A stretch of DNA of 39,022 bases from a virus. The translations under genes and the position numbers were made by a program. The DNA is taken from positions 1 to 39,022 of IMG/VR virus record IMGVR_UViG_3300037485_000561; one strand, 5' to 3'. Positions 5,493-30,879 of the stretch are shown here, in pieces (the stretch's first letter is position 1; every line of letters starts with the position of its first letter). A model generated the notes under the pieces. That model searched no databases, was not told the origin of the DNA, and saw only the letters and a program-made list of their open reading frames with translations.

Positions 5493-6586
5493 AGTGGTCG
5501 TGAAATTTTGTATCCTAGCTTTTGATAGGTTCTGACTCGGGCGAGAAATTGAGCGTGTGCGAGCGCGGCGCCGGCATCAACAAAGTCGTGAACGATGCCA
5601 AATTCTTTGCCCTCATGTGCTCGCATGACGCGGCCTGCACGTTGCTCGAGCTTGCCCGCAGATCTGCCTCCAGCGGCGAGGATCAAGACACTGGCCCGCG
5701 GTACGTCGAGTCCCTCATCGGCCAGACTGGTCGCAATCATGCAGCGGAGTGCGCCACTACGGAATTTTTCAATGGCCTCGGTGCGGCGTTTCTTGCCGAT
5801 TTTTGCGTGGACGACAACGGAGTCGGCGATGTCGGCCTGTAGGCGCTCACCGTGTTCTACGGTTGAGACCAAGATCAGAATGCTACCGGGTTCGCTTGTC
5901 GCTAGATCGATGATCTTGGCGTTACGTTTTGCGTTTGTTTTCACGACATCAGCGGTGGCCTGCCATCTTGCCCGACGTTCGTGTTCACTCGGATCAATAA
6001 ATGGATAACGACGGCACCGGCGTGCGGTCTCGGCAATGGTGCTGGATTCGATCTCAGCATCAAACTGACTGGGCAGATCGAGGTTGTGCGCCACGACTGC
6101 ACCCTGAGTGATGCTGCCCGTTGCCATGACCTCGGATCTCGGGACGGTGTAAAATTCGCGGAAGAAATTTTTGAGCTGCAGATCTCGCTCAGGATCTGAC
6201 CAAGGCGTCGCCGAGAATCCCCAGATAACGCCACTGCACCGGCCTATGGTTGACGCCCAGGTGACGGCCGGCATGTGGTGGGCCTCGTCGACGATGATAA
6301 CGTGCGCAGATGTGCAGTCGGGTTGTGCTGCCACGCAGTGCGCCTCGATCTTGACTCCAAATTTGTCTGCTGCGTCCAAAGCCTGCTGTACCTGCTCTCG
6401 AGTGTTGGCCAGCCATACGATGCGAGCCTGGTTCGTAAACGGCGCTGGAGAATCTGACTGCATGCCGCGGCGCAGCGCAGCCGCAGCGATGAAGGTCTTG
6501 CCGGCGCCGGCGGGAGCGATGACAAAGCCTCGATTTTTCCGCTGCAAAAATTCAACGGCTGCTTGTTGGTAGGGACGGAGATTCAT
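5489..6586 (-). CDS. Superfamily II DNA/RNA helicase (365 aa)
   Basis: Standard SF2 motifs are visible in order: the Q-like LRPYQ near the N-terminus, motif I APAGAGKT (K30), motif II VDEAHH near residue 100, motif III GFSATPW, and in the second RecA domain SLADEGLDVPRAS and motif VI QRAGRVMR. This is the compact DEAH-like form seen in phage helicases related to UvsW or to the ATPase core of type III restriction enzymes. Expected role: fork or recombination intermediate remodelling during replication. The first 35 bases overlap the end of the methyltransferase gene. It is short for the family and carries no extra nuclease domain. Confidence 0.88.
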   Translation of the reverse strand: MNLRPYQQAAVEFLQRKNRGFVIAPAGAGKTFIAAAALRRGMQSDSPAPFTNQARIVWLANTREQVQQALDAADKFGVKIEAHCVAAQPDCTSAHVIIVDEAHHMPAVTWASTIGRCSGVIWGFSATPWSDPERDLQLKNFFREFYTVPRSEVMATGSITQGAVVAHNLDLPSQFDAEIESSTIAETARRCRRYPFIDPSEHERRARWQATADVVKTNAKRNAKIIDLATSEPGSILILVSTVEHGERLQADIADSVVVHAKIGKKRRTEAIEKFRSGALRCMIATSLADEGLDVPRASVLILAAGGRSAGKLEQRAGRVMRAHEGKEFGIVHDFVDAGAALAHAQFLARVRTYQKLGYKISRPL

Positions 6587-7805
6587 TGAGTTCTTCCACT
6601 AAAGTTAAAAAAGCTCGGGTTGCGGTGGCGGGGACAACTCCGTTACCGAGGAGTCTGAGTTCGTCGGTACGATTGTCACAGGTGACGCACAGCTCGGCAT
6701 AGTCCATCCCACGGGCACTCCCATTAGCGTATCGACCCAACGTGGGTTCAGTTTGCCCGCATTCTGTCTGCTCAATGTTACCTTCCCATCGGCCAATCGT
6801 TTTGCTGCAACTTCCGGTGTCGATGCCAGATGACTGTCTCCCACAATCGATGTTGCCCAGTTGTCCTGCTTCACTTGCTCCTCTAACACTTTCCCCCCAG
6901 TCCCCGGCGCCCGACTCCCTGGGCATCCCGCTCTTGGCGTTGCCCACGATTTGATCTGGTCGTTTAAGTTCTTCGACCGATCTGGATTCGTGAATCTCTC
7001 CGCATCCCCGCTCCGAAAGTCCCTGCTCTGCGGCGTTGCCCACGACGCTCTCACCGCTTGCGCTGGCAGCGCATAATTCCCCGCCGAATCCCTCATGTTT
7101 GGCCCGCTGTGTTGAGGATCGCTGGCTTTCGGCGTTGCCCACGACTCGGGGCGGTTCCCATCCGTACTGGTGCTCACCGGGGCGACTAGGCCAGATTCCA
7201 CTGCCTGCACCGCTACATCCAGCGTATCCATTGATATCTTTCCATTCCTGATGCGTCCTCCCACATAGCCGCCCTTGTAATCTCTCGTCGATGAGGTGAG
7301 CCAAGATGAAGACCCGCTTTCTCTGGTGCGGAGCGCCAACTTCACTCGCGCTGAATATGCCCCACGACACTTGGTAACCCATGCTTCCCAGTTCTTCAAT
7401 GACTGCTCGGAGTCCGAGGGAGACGTGTCCTTCGACGTTCTCAAAGAAGCAAACTCGGGGCTGCATGAGTCTAATTCCATCTGCGATGAATGGCCAGAGG
7501 TGTCGGGGATCTTCGGTGCCAAGTCGCTTCCCGGCTGCGGAGAATGGCTGGCATGGGTAGCCGCCAGAGAGGATGTCCACCTTTCCACGAAACCCTGACC
7601 AAGGGAAGGTCTTAAGATTCGTCCAGATAGGTGCTGCGTCCAAGAGTCCCGCTTCCATTTTAGCGACCAAGTTCGCGCAGGCGTAACCTTCGATCTCAGA
7701 AAAAGCGATTGTGCGCAGATCTGGGATTGCTCGTTTAAGTCCGAGATCAATGCCGCCGTATCCAGCGCAGAGACTAACGTGTGTAATTGTTTGGGGAGTA
7801 TCCAT
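6552..7805 (-). CDS. DNA (cytosine-5) methyltransferase
   Basis: The 417-aa protein carries the C5-methyltransferase motifs in normal order: motif I SLCAGYGGIDLGL (residues 11-23), motif IV GGYPCQPFS with catalytic Cys85, motif VI FENVEG (121-126), motif VIII APHQRKRVFIL (158-168) and motif X LGNGVVPATA (from 386). Between VIII and X lies a long variable target-recognition region with repeated VVGNAES, VVGNAAE and IVGNAKS. It transfers a methyl group from S-adenosylmethionine to cytosine, probably to protect phage DNA from host restriction. No cognate endonuclease is seen. A second frame on the same strand is open over nearly the whole gene (see 6605-7810). Upstream of the ATG there is no SD. 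Its end overlaps the helicase start by 35 bases. Confidence 0.92.
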   Translation of the reverse strand: MDTPQTITHVSLCAGYGGIDLGLKRAIPDLRTIAFSEIEGYACANLVAKMEAGLLDAAPIWTNLKTFPWSGFRGKVDILSGGYPCQPFSAAGKRLGTEDPRHLWPFIADGIRLMQPRVCFFENVEGHVSLGLRAVIEELGSMGYQVSWGIFSASEVGAPHQRKRVFILAHLIDERLQGRLCGRTHQEWKDINGYAGCSGAGSGIWPSRPGEHQYGWEPPRVVGNAESQRSSTQRAKHEGFGGELCAASASGESVVGNAAEQGLSERGCGEIHESRSVEELKRPDQIVGNAKSGMPRESGAGDWGESVRGASEAGQLGNIDCGRQSSGIDTGSCSKTIGRWEGNIEQTECGQTEPTLGRYANGSARGMDYAELCVTCDNRTDELRLLGNGVVPATATRAFLTLVEELNESPSLPTSSR

Positions 7806-7810
7806 GTCAT
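6605..7810 (-). CDS. Candidate overprinted gene inside the methyltransferase (401 aa)
   Basis: This is a second same-strand frame, shifted relative to the methyltransferase. Its ATG at 7810 lies five bases before the methyltransferase ATG; a TTG at 7852 would add 14 residues. It is open for 401 codons and stops 18 bases before the helicase start. The product has patterned sequence: TSKDTSPSD, NWEAWVTK, four repeats SWATPKA, SWATPQS, SWATPRA and NWATSIV, then LNPRWVDTLMGVPVGWT. These WxTP and LNPxWVxxLMGxPxGWT motifs are ones I recognise from many phage proteins annotated near or as methyltransferases. The same DNA encodes VGNA in one frame and WATP in the other. It may be a true overlapping gene or a conserved shadow frame that databases have absorbed. 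Confidence 0.45.
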   Translation of the reverse strand: MTWILPKQLHTLVSALDTAALISDLNEQSQICAQSLFLRSKVTPARTWSLKWKRDSWTQHLSGRILRPSLGQGFVERWTSSLAATHASHSPQPGSDLAPKIPDTSGHSSQMELDSCSPEFASLRTSKDTSPSDSEQSLKNWEAWVTKCRGAYSARVKLALRTRESGSSSWLTSSTRDYKGGYVGGRIRNGKISMDTLDVAVQAVESGLVAPVSTSTDGNRPESWATPKASDPQHSGPNMRDSAGNYALPAQAVRASWATPQSRDFRSGDAERFTNPDRSKNLNDQIKSWATPRAGCPGSRAPGTGGKVLEEQVKQDNWATSIVGDSHLASTPEVAAKRLADGKVTLSRQNAGKLNPRWVDTLMGVPVGWTMPSCASPVTIVPTNSDSSVTELSPPPQPELF

Positions 7811-7852
7811 TGGGAAAATTTGCGCGTTGAACAGTCGCGCCCCTGCACCCAA

Positions 7853-25761: not shown

Positions 25762-28287
25762 TTAGAGGATTAGTTTAGGGTAGCCCCAAGTCCCGTCGGC
25801 CAGTAGTGCTTTTTTATTGGCTCCATCTCCAGCAGCCGCGGCTGGGACGAATCCTTTGGTTCCACCTGATCCGCTGTCGCCAACGTAGGTTGGAATTGTG
25901 TTAGATGTCACGCTTGTAATGCGTCCTGTAGAGTCTACGACGATGGTAAGTGTCGTGGTGGTGCTGCCGTAGGTGCCGGCCGTTGCGCCAGACGCTGCAA
26001 CCGCTACGGTGACCGATGCGTCAGCGTTCGTAATGCTGACGCCAGTGCCGGCCGTAAGCCGCGCCGCCTTCCAGAGACTGTTGGTAGCATCACGCACCAG
26101 CAGTGCGCCGGCCGCGGGTGCGCTGGTAATCTGCACGTCGTGGATCTCGTCGAGTTCATAACCGTTCTGCACACGAACGTAAAGTTGACCGTTGCCGCTG
26201 TTGGCCCGCTCGACGATGCCAACGTAAACTAGGTGATTGGGAGCATACGGCTTTGTGCTGGTAACAGATCCAGCCGTGGCCCCGAGGTAGAGCGTGTCGC
26301 CATCGTTGTAAGCACCAAGATTGAGTCCATCGACAACGCCCACCATGCGAATGTAGCCTGCGTTGTTGGCCGCAATAGAAGAATCCAATACCACACCAAC
26401 GGTCTTTGCGCTGGTGGCATCGCTGGTGTTGTAGGCCAGCTTCACGCTCATCCGATTGCCGGTGGCGCCAAAAGCGTAGACGACCTGGCCCTTGGTAATT
26501 GTTACTGAATCGGCGTTGGTAACGTATGCATCAAGTACGTTCTGCGCAGCCGCAACATCAGACGACAACTCGTTGATTGCATCCTGCACCGTTGTGCTCG
26601 AGATCGTGCCAGATGGCACATTGGTGATCTGCGATGCGGTGTAGTCGCCGTTGGCCGAAACTACTGCGCCCGTGCGCGTGAATACCGACGTGACCGGCGC
26701 CGTTGGATAGCTCAGTTGCGTCCAGCTCGTCAGCAGCGAAGGAGTTGATCCGGTGATGATCCAAGACGTGCCGAGATCGGTACGAATGCACCAGTCGCCC
26801 TGCTGGCCGGTGAGCGCAAGCATTGCCGCCTCAGATGCCACCGCACCAAGGTAGCTGACAATGGAGATGTCTGGGATCTGTGAAGCGGTGAGCTTGCTGT
26901 CGGATCCGAGAGTTGCAGCGCCATTTGCCGCTCCAGCAGTAAGAAGTGCTGCACTTCCAAGGCCAAGATTGGTACGCGCATCAGATGCCGTTGTAGCTCC
27001 GGTGCCGCCATTAACAATGGCCACCGTTCCGGTTACGTTGCTGGCAGTTCCCGTCGTGTTTTGATTGAGCGTCGGAAAACTTGTTAAATTTGCCGCGGAT
27101 CCGTTGGGTGCCAGCACGTCCGTTCCGATCACTAGGCCAAGGTTTGTTCGAGCGTCCGCAGCCGTGGTCGCATTGGTTCCACCATTTGCCACTGCAACGG
27201 TTCCGGTGACATTTGCAGCCGTGCCAGTGGTATTCTGGTTCAGCGTTGGAAAATCGCCTGCAACCGCAATGGACGGCACGCCTGTGCCCGTAGTGTTCTT
27301 GAGGATACCAGTGGCAAGGCCGGCCAGTGCCGTGCCGTTGATCTTGGTGACCGTAGCAGTAAGCGCCCCGGTGGATCCTGCCGCAGTAACGTCGCCCGTG
27401 ATCGAGATCGTCTGGTCGCCGGTGTTGGTTCCTGAGAGATTCGTGCCGGTTACCGTGCCGGTTGCTGCGACGGATGACGGAGTGATGGCGCCGAGTGTTA
27501 GGCTGATGGCCGGCGTCGTGGTCGAGTTGGCCACGGATCCGCTCACGCCATTTGCGGTGGTTACCGAGACGCTCGTCACAGATCCCACGCCGGCCGCAGC
27601 CCATGACGTGGTCGATCCATTGGTCGAAAGCACCTTGCCAGAGTTGCCGGCTTGGCTTGGCAGAAGATCGTTCGCATCAGGCGCGACCCATGTAGCGTCT
27701 GCGCGAAGAAATTTCTTGGCCGCGGCAGATCCTGACGTTGGCGCCGGCACTAGGCCATGCGTGCCACCAGATCCAGAGTCGCCCACCATGTCTGGCAGCA
27801 TGCCATTGAGCGTGGACATGTCCAAATCACTCGGGGCGCCGGTGCCACTTGAGCGACCCTTGACCGTTGGGCCGGTCATGTCGGCCAGTTTTGCATTCGT
27901 GACCACGCCAGGCTGGATCGTGGTCGTGATCGAAGACGTGCCAGATCCAGCAACGTCAGATGACAGCGTGATCGTCTGGTCGCCGGTATTTGTGCCGCTC
28001 AGATTGGATCCGCTGATGGCGCCGACAGCCGTGACGGCATCTGGCGTGATCGAGCCGAGCGCCAGGGTGATGGATCCAGCCGACGTGATCGGGCTGTCGG
28101 TTACAGTAATCCCATCCGTGCCAGTAATGCCAATTGAGGTGACCGTGCCGCCGCCAGCAGCCGCAAAAATCTGAGCAACCGTGGCCCTCTTGTTGGTCGA
28201 GGTGTTACCGTCCACCATGACGGTGTAGTCCGTGGTGTTTACGGTTGTGGCTACTGGTAGCTGAGAGATTTTTTTATCAACACTCAT
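25762..28287 (-). CDS. Tail fibre / appendage protein with internal duplications (841 aa)
   Basis: Head MSVDKKISQLPVATTVNTTDY followed by long Gly/Thr/Ser/Ala/Val-rich shaft. Three motif pairs are visible: SGTNTGDQTI with a preceding T/S-N-L (about residues 97 and 285), FPTLNQNTTGTA followed by NVTGTVA and NGGTxATTAxDARTNLGL (twice, about 345 and 410), and VGDSGSGGTxG (near 168 and again near the C-terminus). A familiar module SVFTRTGAVVSANGDYTASQI then SGTISSTTVQDAINEL lies in the second half, then a beta domain (ITKGQVVYAFGATGNRMSV). There is no S74 domain. Likely the first fibre or a baseplate adaptor fibre. It starts in an ATGA overlap with the 38-aa gene. Confidence 0.8.
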   Translation of the reverse strand: MSVDKKISQLPVATTVNTTDYTVMVDGNTSTNKRATVAQIFAAAGGGTVTSIGITGTDGITVTDSPITSAGSITLALGSITPDAVTAVGAISGSNLSGTNTGDQTITLSSDVAGSGTSSITTTIQPGVVTNAKLADMTGPTVKGRSSGTGAPSDLDMSTLNGMLPDMVGDSGSGGTHGLVPAPTSGSAAAKKFLRADATWVAPDANDLLPSQAGNSGKVLSTNGSTTSWAAAGVGSVTSVSVTTANGVSGSVANSTTTPAISLTLGAITPSSVAATGTVTGTNLSGTNTGDQTISITGDVTAAGSTGALTATVTKINGTALAGLATGILKNTTGTGVPSIAVAGDFPTLNQNTTGTAANVTGTVAVANGGTNATTAADARTNLGLVIGTDVLAPNGSAANLTSFPTLNQNTTGTASNVTGTVAIVNGGTGATTASDARTNLGLGSAALLTAGAANGAATLGSDSKLTASQIPDISIVSYLGAVASEAAMLALTGQQGDWCIRTDLGTSWIITGSTPSLLTSWTQLSYPTAPVTSVFTRTGAVVSANGDYTASQITNVPSGTISSTTVQDAINELSSDVAAAQNVLDAYVTNADSVTITKGQVVYAFGATGNRMSVKLAYNTSDATSAKTVGVVLDSSIAANNAGYIRMVGVVDGLNLGAYNDGDTLYLGATAGSVTSTKPYAPNHLVYVGIVERANSGNGQLYVRVQNGYELDEIHDVQITSAPAAGALLVRDATNSLWKAARLTAGTGVSITNADASVTVAVAASGATAGTYGSTTTTLTIVVDSTGRITSVTSNTIPTYVGDSGSGGTKGFVPAAAAGDGANKKALLADGTWGYPKLIL

Positions 28288-29854: not shown

Positions 29855-30850
29855 TTAGCTCGAGAAGTCGAATTTACCGAACGCGAGCGGGTTCTTGACG
29901 ACGAGACCGGCGACGGCCTCGATCAAGCGGGCTGGGCCACCGCCGTAGTCAGGGAGATCCTTGACTTCTGGGAGGCTGGAGTAACGGATTTCGCAGAGAT
30001 CCATTGGGATGACATAGCCTTTGTAAGCCGCGGGCATGAACGCATCAGGATGGAGACGAATGCGACCGAAATCGCCCTCGAACACATCAACGCTCGAGAG
30101 GAAGGTCTCGGCATCGGCCTCACGATTGAACGTGCGGATCGAAGAAGCGGTGTTGGTGTTGGCGTTTTGGCTGGTCGTAAAGAGCAGGTTCGTGAAAGCG
30201 CGTTTGACCGAGCTGCCAACGATACCGTCGTAGTCACGGAAGGTGCCGGTCTGACCCCAGATGGAGGTCAGGAGACCTTGCACCATCGACTCATCAAGCG
30301 TCGTGGAGGCAGCGGAGCCACCAACGATGCTGGCGGAAGGCGTGCGGAAAGCAGAGGGGACAGCAGGGGTGCTGCCGCCGCTGGTGCTGATCCAGGTGCC
30401 CATCGCTTTGGTGAGGTAAGGATTGGTGCCGTTATCAGCCTGGCCATCGTTGGCCGAGAGGAAGGTGGCTTCCATATCGCGCTTCATCAGCGTGATGCCT
30501 TTGGCGACCATGCCAGCGAGTTCGTCCTTCAGACCGGCGACGATAGAGACATCGACGGAGAGAGGAGACACGCGCACGGGACGACGGAACACTTGGACGT
30601 AATTGGCCAAGAGCGCACGGCCCGAGTTGAGATTTTGGTAATCCGAGGAGGTGACATCCGTACCGTCGACGGTGCCGGTGGTGGCAGTCGCGGGGAAGTT
30701 GTCAGCCTGCCATTGGAGGTAGGTGTTGCCGGGCTTGGAGCCTTTTGGAGCCATCGCGACGAAGGGGGTGTCCTTCGCATCGACAAGCGAGATATAGTCA
30801 GCGAGGTCTTCGCGTTTACCGACCTGAGAGCGTTCGTAGAGTTGAGCCAT
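29855..30850 (-). CDS. Major capsid protein, SU10/DUF5309-like (331 aa)
   Basis: N-terminus MAQLYERSQVGKREDLADYISLVDAKDTPFV and the following YLQWQADNFPA block are the signature opening of the DUF5309/SU10-like capsid family (KRExLxDxxxxxDpxDTPF...EWQ). It contains RRPVRVSPLSVDVSIVAG, an E-loop-like stretch, LMKRDMEATFLS (spine helix), IVGSSVKRAFTNLL and SVDVFEGDFGRIRLHPDAFM strands of the HK97-type fold. Located right after the scaffold gene. It forms the icosahedral shell. No SD; an AT-rich perfect palindrome lies upstream. Confidence 0.87.
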   Translation of the reverse strand: MAQLYERSQVGKREDLADYISLVDAKDTPFVAMAPKGSKPGNTYLQWQADNFPATATTGTVDGTDVTSSDYQNLNSGRALLANYVQVFRRPVRVSPLSVDVSIVAGLKDELAGMVAKGITLMKRDMEATFLSANDGQADNGTNPYLTKAMGTWISTSGGSTPAVPSAFRTPSASIVGGSAASTTLDESMVQGLLTSIWGQTGTFRDYDGIVGSSVKRAFTNLLFTTSQNANTNTASSIRTFNREADAETFLSSVDVFEGDFGRIRLHPDAFMPAAYKGYVIPMDLCEIRYSSLPEVKDLPDYGGGPARLIEAVAGLVVKNPLAFGKFDFSS

Positions 30851-30863
30851 GTTAGTGAGTCCT

Positions 30864-30879
30864 AGTTTTTATAAAAACT
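30864..30879. promoter_or_regulatory. Perfect 16-bp palindrome before the capsid gene
   Basis: AGTTTTTATAAAAACT is self-complementary. It overlaps the scaffold stop and ends 13 bases before the capsid ATG (30850). It could form a hairpin in the mRNA, bind a dimeric regulator or mark processing. Confidence 0.4.

Follow-up and report, generated by a model that had tools for sequence, protein, structure and literature searches.

The C5-cytosine methyltransferase M.EcoHK31I (YGGCCR) has a beta polypeptide of about 176 aa. This small subunit is said, in work attributed to Lee et al. 1995, to be encoded in another frame inside the large one. Canonical C5 enzymes have, after motif VIII and ahead of motif X, a small domain that comprises motif IX and the variable recognition region; in M.EcoHK31I motif IX is on the smaller subunit, and motifs I-VIII and X are on the larger one (PMC3404938). 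M.AquI (CYCGRG) also consists of two polypeptides, the second of which has the distal recognition region, motif IX and motif X (PMC3404938). Totally overlapping C5-methyltransferase ORFs have been described in the S. thermophilus 5093-group phages, in a section that also cites a pneumococcal phage and a streptococcal conjugative transposon (PMC5601072), and in phage K1H the genes for ORF29 (C-specific methylase) and ORF28 (Mte8-like protein) are nested in the +1 relation with NPAHSRWLMGYPPEW in the second frame. Nested C5-methyltransferase ORFs, as in M.EcoHK31I, the streptococcal phages and phage K1H, are thus of a kind already known. What is added here is a full-length second chain that starts together with the first, selection on both frames, the breadth of the arrangement (phages N15 and epsilon15 included) and the occurrence of one domain in nested, split and fused form.

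Layout of the locus

The window, that is the whole stretch of DNA that was analysed, spans the 39,022 bases of a virus record, and in it helicase, exonuclease and RecT genes surround a methyltransferase locus. The locus has two ORFs that we call alpha and beta, and beta, which has an ATG start, lies almost entirely within the 417-codon alpha gene in its +1 frame. The features, of which the alpha motifs were located in the sequence, are as follows.

6552-7805, minus strand: alpha, the large polypeptide of a C5-cytosine methyltransferase, 417 aa, ATG at 7805
6605-7810, minus strand: beta, the second-frame ORF (+1), 401 aa, proposed recognition subunit with motif IX
7803-7810, minus strand: coupled starts ATGacATG (beta ATG 7810, alpha ATG 7805)
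7752-7772, minus strand: alpha motif I
7539-7565, minus strand: alpha motif IV (PCQ)
7425-7442, minus strand: alpha motif VI (ENV)
7299-7334, minus strand: alpha motif VIII
7140-7193, minus strand: conserved alpha-frame segment WPSRPGEHQYGWEPPRVV, within the overlap, in the recognition region
6848-7141, minus strand: beta W-A-T-P repeat region (three WATP and one WATS), overlying three VGNA and the LGNI of alpha
6701-6751, minus strand: beta LNPRWVDTLMGVPVGWT, assigned to motif IX from its position and its homology to fused enzymes
6609-6668, minus strand: alpha motif X

A sequence-only reading of this DNA had drawn attention to the second frame and its geometry was confirmed: the frame is open for 401 codons from the ATG at 7810, or for 415 from a TTG at 7852, its ATG is 5 bases ahead of the alpha ATG, and its stop, which ends at 6605, is 18 bases ahead of the helicase ATG at 6586. 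That reading had also placed LNPRWVDTLMGVPVGWT of beta over LGRYANGSARGMDYA of the enzyme frame (6696-6740) and NWEAWVTK of the beta frame (from 7393) at the motif VIII region, and both placements hold, the latter peptide being just ahead of motif VIII and overlapping it. The four-fold WATP repeat that it saw over VGNA was correct for three copies, at 7130-7141, 7031-7042 and 6935-6946, but the fourth is WATS (6848-6859) and overlies LGNID. Alpha itself overlaps the first 35 bases of the downstream helicase gene (window 6552-6586) and this short stretch therefore also codes in two frames.

Like the larger subunit of M.EcoHK31I, the window alpha has motifs I-VIII and X, and motif IX is again in a separate polypeptide, judged from where it lies and from its homology to fused enzymes, although this polypeptide is only slightly smaller than alpha. 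Unlike in M.EcoHK31I, the window beta has about the length of alpha, and its start adjoins the alpha start. Another difference is that the predicted recognition domain of M.EcoHK31I has been put in the large subunit (PMC3404938) whereas selection in the window points to beta. Since no comparison was made with the M.EcoHK31I sequence, a likeness in how the two enzymes work is better supported than membership in one family. The window shares with M.AquI the proposed division into two polypeptides, the second with motif IX and the distal part of recognition, but by the presence of motif X in the second subunit it does not qualify as an M.AquI type, as its motif X is in alpha. The 5093-group ORFs are like those of the window in that the same DNA in different frames gives two C5-methyltransferase-like products; they differ in that the section concerned reports them as a striking feature of the annotation and neither assigns motifs nor tests for selection nor proposes subunits (PMC5601072). 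In phage K1H the start of beta is inside alpha, and both ORFs are annotated.

The two proposed chains

Alpha has all of motifs I, IV (PCQ), VI (ENV), VIII and X and by this measure is a C5-cytosine methyltransferase. It matched Pfam DNA_methylase at 3.1e-34 and TIGR00675 (dcm) at 1.1e-27, which is slightly below the cut-off of that model, and in Foldseek its structure model matched M.HaeIII, M.HhaI and DNMT1. In the AF2 model of alpha, residues from about 1 to 180 (motifs I-VIII) and 385-410 (the motif X helix) were ordered, and residues from about 180 to 383 were of low confidence and modelled as disordered. A complete single-chain enzyme would also hold motif IX and an ordered small domain; neither was found in alpha, given this model, and the motif-IX-like sequence sits in beta. 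Because of this and the low confidence of residues 180-383, alpha on its own is an incomplete single-chain member. In the alpha alignment W205, P209, Q213, W216, E217, P218, R220 and V221 of the WPSRPGEHQYGWEPPRVV segment are invariant, and as the window-family alpha retains this conserved segment within the recognition region it might, to judge by conservation alone, take some part in recognition in that family.

In beta, LNPRWVDTLMGVPVGWT is near-invariant in the family, with L354, N355, W358, V359, L362, M363, P366, G368 and W369 invariant. The PHROG 1008 profile, which is labelled simply DNA methyltransferase, matched the window beta at 2.8e-16 and, in all, 57 of 57 members of the beta family. 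Beta was matched by none of the models in Pfam, NCBIfam and PADLOC and, if the two-chain reading is right, requires a family model of its own; a PDB sequence search gave only chance matches and nothing significant, and a plasmid search gave few relatives. The AlphaFold model of beta was poor and uninformative (pLDDT 54, pTM 0.23) and hence the fold of beta as the small domain is without structural proof. The N-terminal 170 or so residues of beta have no known counterpart and their role can only be guessed, the cheapest guess being that they serve the folding of beta or its docking on alpha.

The pairing of the two starts is conserved in the family. The beta ATG is at -5 relative to the alpha start in 36 of 66 homologues, in 34 of which the alpha start is also ATG, and it is at -2, overlapping an alpha GTG (ATGTG), in another 25; it is at -8 or +4 in two, and in the remaining three it is at none of these positions. 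Most window-family betas open with MTWILPKQLHT or MWILPKQLHT. In a second family, which was queried with the enzyme of Acinetobacter phage ABMM1, 68 of 72 genes have the beta ATG 4 bases past the enzyme start. No obvious Shine-Dalgarno sequence for beta was seen in 34 of 62 window-family loci.

The second frame is kept open and both frames are under selection

Stops were counted from the third enzyme codon to 30 codons short of the enzyme stop in 66 distinct IMG/VR homologues with usable gene ends, the window gene included, and synonymous shuffles within each gene served as the null. The sequence-only reading had named frequent stops among close homologues as one of the outcomes that would speak against it, and it had called for a comparison with codon-shuffled controls. 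There were no +1 stops in the 66 homologues compared to about 349 expected, to which motifs I-VIII contributed about 244 and the recognition region 105. When the window gene was shuffled synonymously none of 300 shuffles retained an open +1 frame, and thus the beta frame is open far beyond the null. The +2 frame had stops roughly as predicted, 1141 compared to about 1103 expected. In the ABMM1 family there was one +1 stop in 54 genes where about 236 were expected. These counts are not independent because many of the homologues are of common ancestry. As controls, at least 7 +1 stops were counted in each of nine further genes of the window and in E. coli dcm, and 15 fused single-chain relatives had 96 in total (about 134 expected). 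The fused relatives carry these stops with all of the enzyme in frame, and therefore an open +1 frame is not imposed by being a C5 methyltransferase.

Overlap-aware rates were obtained by sorting isolated differences according to their effect in each frame, with two measures and with both disjoint pairs and all pairs; the intervals are approximate even with disjoint pairs since the homologues share ancestry. Over motifs I-VIII of the window family the rate was 0.08-0.15 for alpha and 0.27-0.51 for beta, and over the recognition region it was 0.18-0.52 for alpha and 0.08-0.25 for beta. In the ABMM1 family the beta rate over motifs I-VIII was 0.43 and 0.29 by the two measures, and over the recognition region the rates were 0.78-2.2 for alpha and 0.04-0.10 for beta; the enzyme frame of this family appears unconstrained across the recognition region. 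In unrelated control genes on the same contigs the +1 frame gave 0.91 and 1.24. Both frames are thus under purifying selection, which is stronger on alpha over motifs I-VIII and on beta over the recognition and motif-IX region, and the second frame shows constraint at the protein level. In the N-terminal half of beta the constraint is moderate and uneven (two measures, four segments).

Nested, split and fused forms

A profile made only from second-frame sequence, from motif VIII onward, matched about 19 actinophage enzymes, found with a prophiGD91-2 query, in the same ORF as their catalytic domain and with E-values down to 1e-12. The order in these enzymes, all in one frame, is motifs I-VIII, LLPTP repeats, WMMGWPxGWVT and motif X. 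The WATP repeat region of beta is homologous to their LLPTP repeat region, and LNPRWVDTLMGVPVGWT aligns in frame with their ...EWMMGWPxGWVT... upstream of motif X. This in-frame match is the reason why we take beta to correspond to what lies after motif VIII and ahead of motif X. The single-chain C5 methyltransferases of Batiatus and prophiGD91-2 have the same LPTP repeat and motif-IX domain followed by motif X, but they are in a single frame throughout and show no retention of an open +1 frame. When the fused enzymes and E. coli Dcm were compared by profile only motifs I-VIII aligned and there was no direct match to the canonical motif IX of Dcm.

Nested +1 pairs were the commonest architecture (about 270 loci); about 40 loci were split and about 28 were fused, and no nested +2 pair was seen among the collected loci; these loci include near-duplicates and the counts mirror the queries and not natural frequencies. 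The nested pair is widespread in phages and prophages and is mostly annotated as one gene. Bacterial loci were found in Acinetobacter, Pseudomonas, Halomonas, Burkholderia and many MAGs. In two well-studied phages, N15 (gene 58, L291:20547-21542) and epsilon15 (L292:14021-15190), a nested second ORF has WxTP repeats and NPxHSRWLMGLP, and only one ORF is annotated in each. The annotated gene is the alpha frame in ABMM1, and in Salmonella phage SLP-22 (L004:2596-3549) the annotated DNA methyltransferase is the beta frame and the catalytic alpha frame is omitted. In mycobacteriophage Pioneer (L009:1171-2185) and similar cluster members a split pair is annotated as two DNA methylases, with motifs I-VIII in the first ORF and LPTP repeats, WMMGYPEGW and motif X in the overlapping second one, which is the M.AquI layout.

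One window-family relative (L090, 2414-3449) has motif X (DNRTDELRLLGNGVVP) in the beta frame and its alpha ends without motif X; it has motif X in the second chain, as M.AquI does, and is an intermediate towards that layout. In a Thermoanaerobaculia MAG (L368:1710-2789) the motif-IX peptide of beta and GRVVDGLADRVVQLRALGNGQV are in different frames with no catalytic region nearby, and the locus looks like a decayed remnant. The sequence-only reading had proposed a search for the second protein apart from the overlap. The search succeeded to the extent that the same domain occurs fused in frame or split off, but a clean stand-alone beta gene was not found, the loci without alpha being three contig edges and two loci of bacterial genomes, the L368 remnant and one unresolved case (L369).

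A probable two-chain enzyme and its alternatives

We consider it very probable that the locus encodes one C5-cytosine methyltransferase as two chains, alpha with motifs I-VIII and X and beta with the recognition region and motif IX, in the manner of M.EcoHK31I. What we have computed is that two frames are under protein-level selection, that the starts are conserved and that beta is homologous to the recognition and motif-IX part of single-chain enzymes. Translation of beta, a complex of alpha and beta and sequence-specific methylation are inferred only, with nothing experimental behind them; such methylation would probably shield phage DNA from host restriction. In the proposed mechanism alpha would supply the catalytic large domain, with motifs I-VIII, then a stretch of little order where the recognition region lies and then motif X, and beta, in the +1 frame with its ATG beside the alpha start, would supply the small DNA-recognition domain with the WxTP repeats and motif IX (LNPxWVxxLMGxPxGWT). 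The small domain, which is within the large one in single-chain enzymes, would here be released as a separate chain. That alpha would have to read through the recognition DNA of beta to reach motif X would explain why both frames are open.

That fused and split versions exist means that the recognition region can join the catalytic part, and this leaves some room for a programmed +1 shift after motif VIII and a shift back before motif X that would make one chain, with no separate beta. We regard this as improbable since motif X could be reached only with two shifts, the ATG of beta is conserved next to the alpha start, the beta frame is already open and under constraint ahead of motif VIII, and the window-family alpha is constrained inside the recognition region. 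It is marginally less probable still that beta is a real overprinted protein with another function, for example in anti-restriction or regulation, and not a subunit of the enzyme. The N-terminal half of beta, constrained yet without a known counterpart, and the lack of a Pfam, NCBIfam or PADLOC model for beta would agree with such a protein, but the C-terminal half is homologous to the recognition and motif-IX part of single-chain C5 methyltransferases, an intact beta was never seen without a nearby alpha in the loci collected (one case is unresolved), and alpha has no recognisable motif IX. Of the two roles that the sequence-only reading had offered for an overprinted partner gene, target recognition is borne out by the absence of stops, the constraint on the second frame and the occurrence of the domain outside the overlap, and the anti-restriction role found no support. 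Its other possibility, a shadow frame kept open solely by the amino acids, codon usage or GC content of the enzyme, with motifs that are out-of-frame images, draws on the way in which the motifs of the two frames overlie each other (VGNA/WATP, LGRxxxG/WVxxLMG) and is hardly credible, being refuted at the level of sequence by the many stops in synonymous shuffles, the +1 stops in fused relatives, the overlap-aware rates, by which the recognition region evolves more slowly in the second frame than in the enzyme frame, and the matches of the second-frame profile to genuine in-frame domains elsewhere.

If the two-chain enzyme is real then many annotated phage C5 methyltransferase genes are half an enzyme, cloning of the annotated ORF without its partner would yield an enzyme that is inactive or mis-specified, and the assignment of methylomes to genes would overlook the recognition chain. 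A same-strand overlap of about 400 codons is unusually long, selection can be measured on both of its frames, and because fused and nested versions both survive, the origin and the cost of the gene overlap are directly testable. A broader picture, which we put forward only tentatively and think somewhat less likely to be right than wrong, is that the C5 methyltransferases of phages and prophages include a large class with dual coding over nearly the whole gene and a recognition chain of full length, that the N-terminal half of this chain may be a new domain with a role in assembly or a second function, and that the module moves between nested, split and fused forms by change of frame.

Elsewhere in the window, and without a null comparison, two long antisense ORFs were seen on the plus strand, one of 369 codons (27065-28174) opposite the gene at 25762-28287 and one of 271 codons (30050-30865) opposite the gene at 29855-30850.
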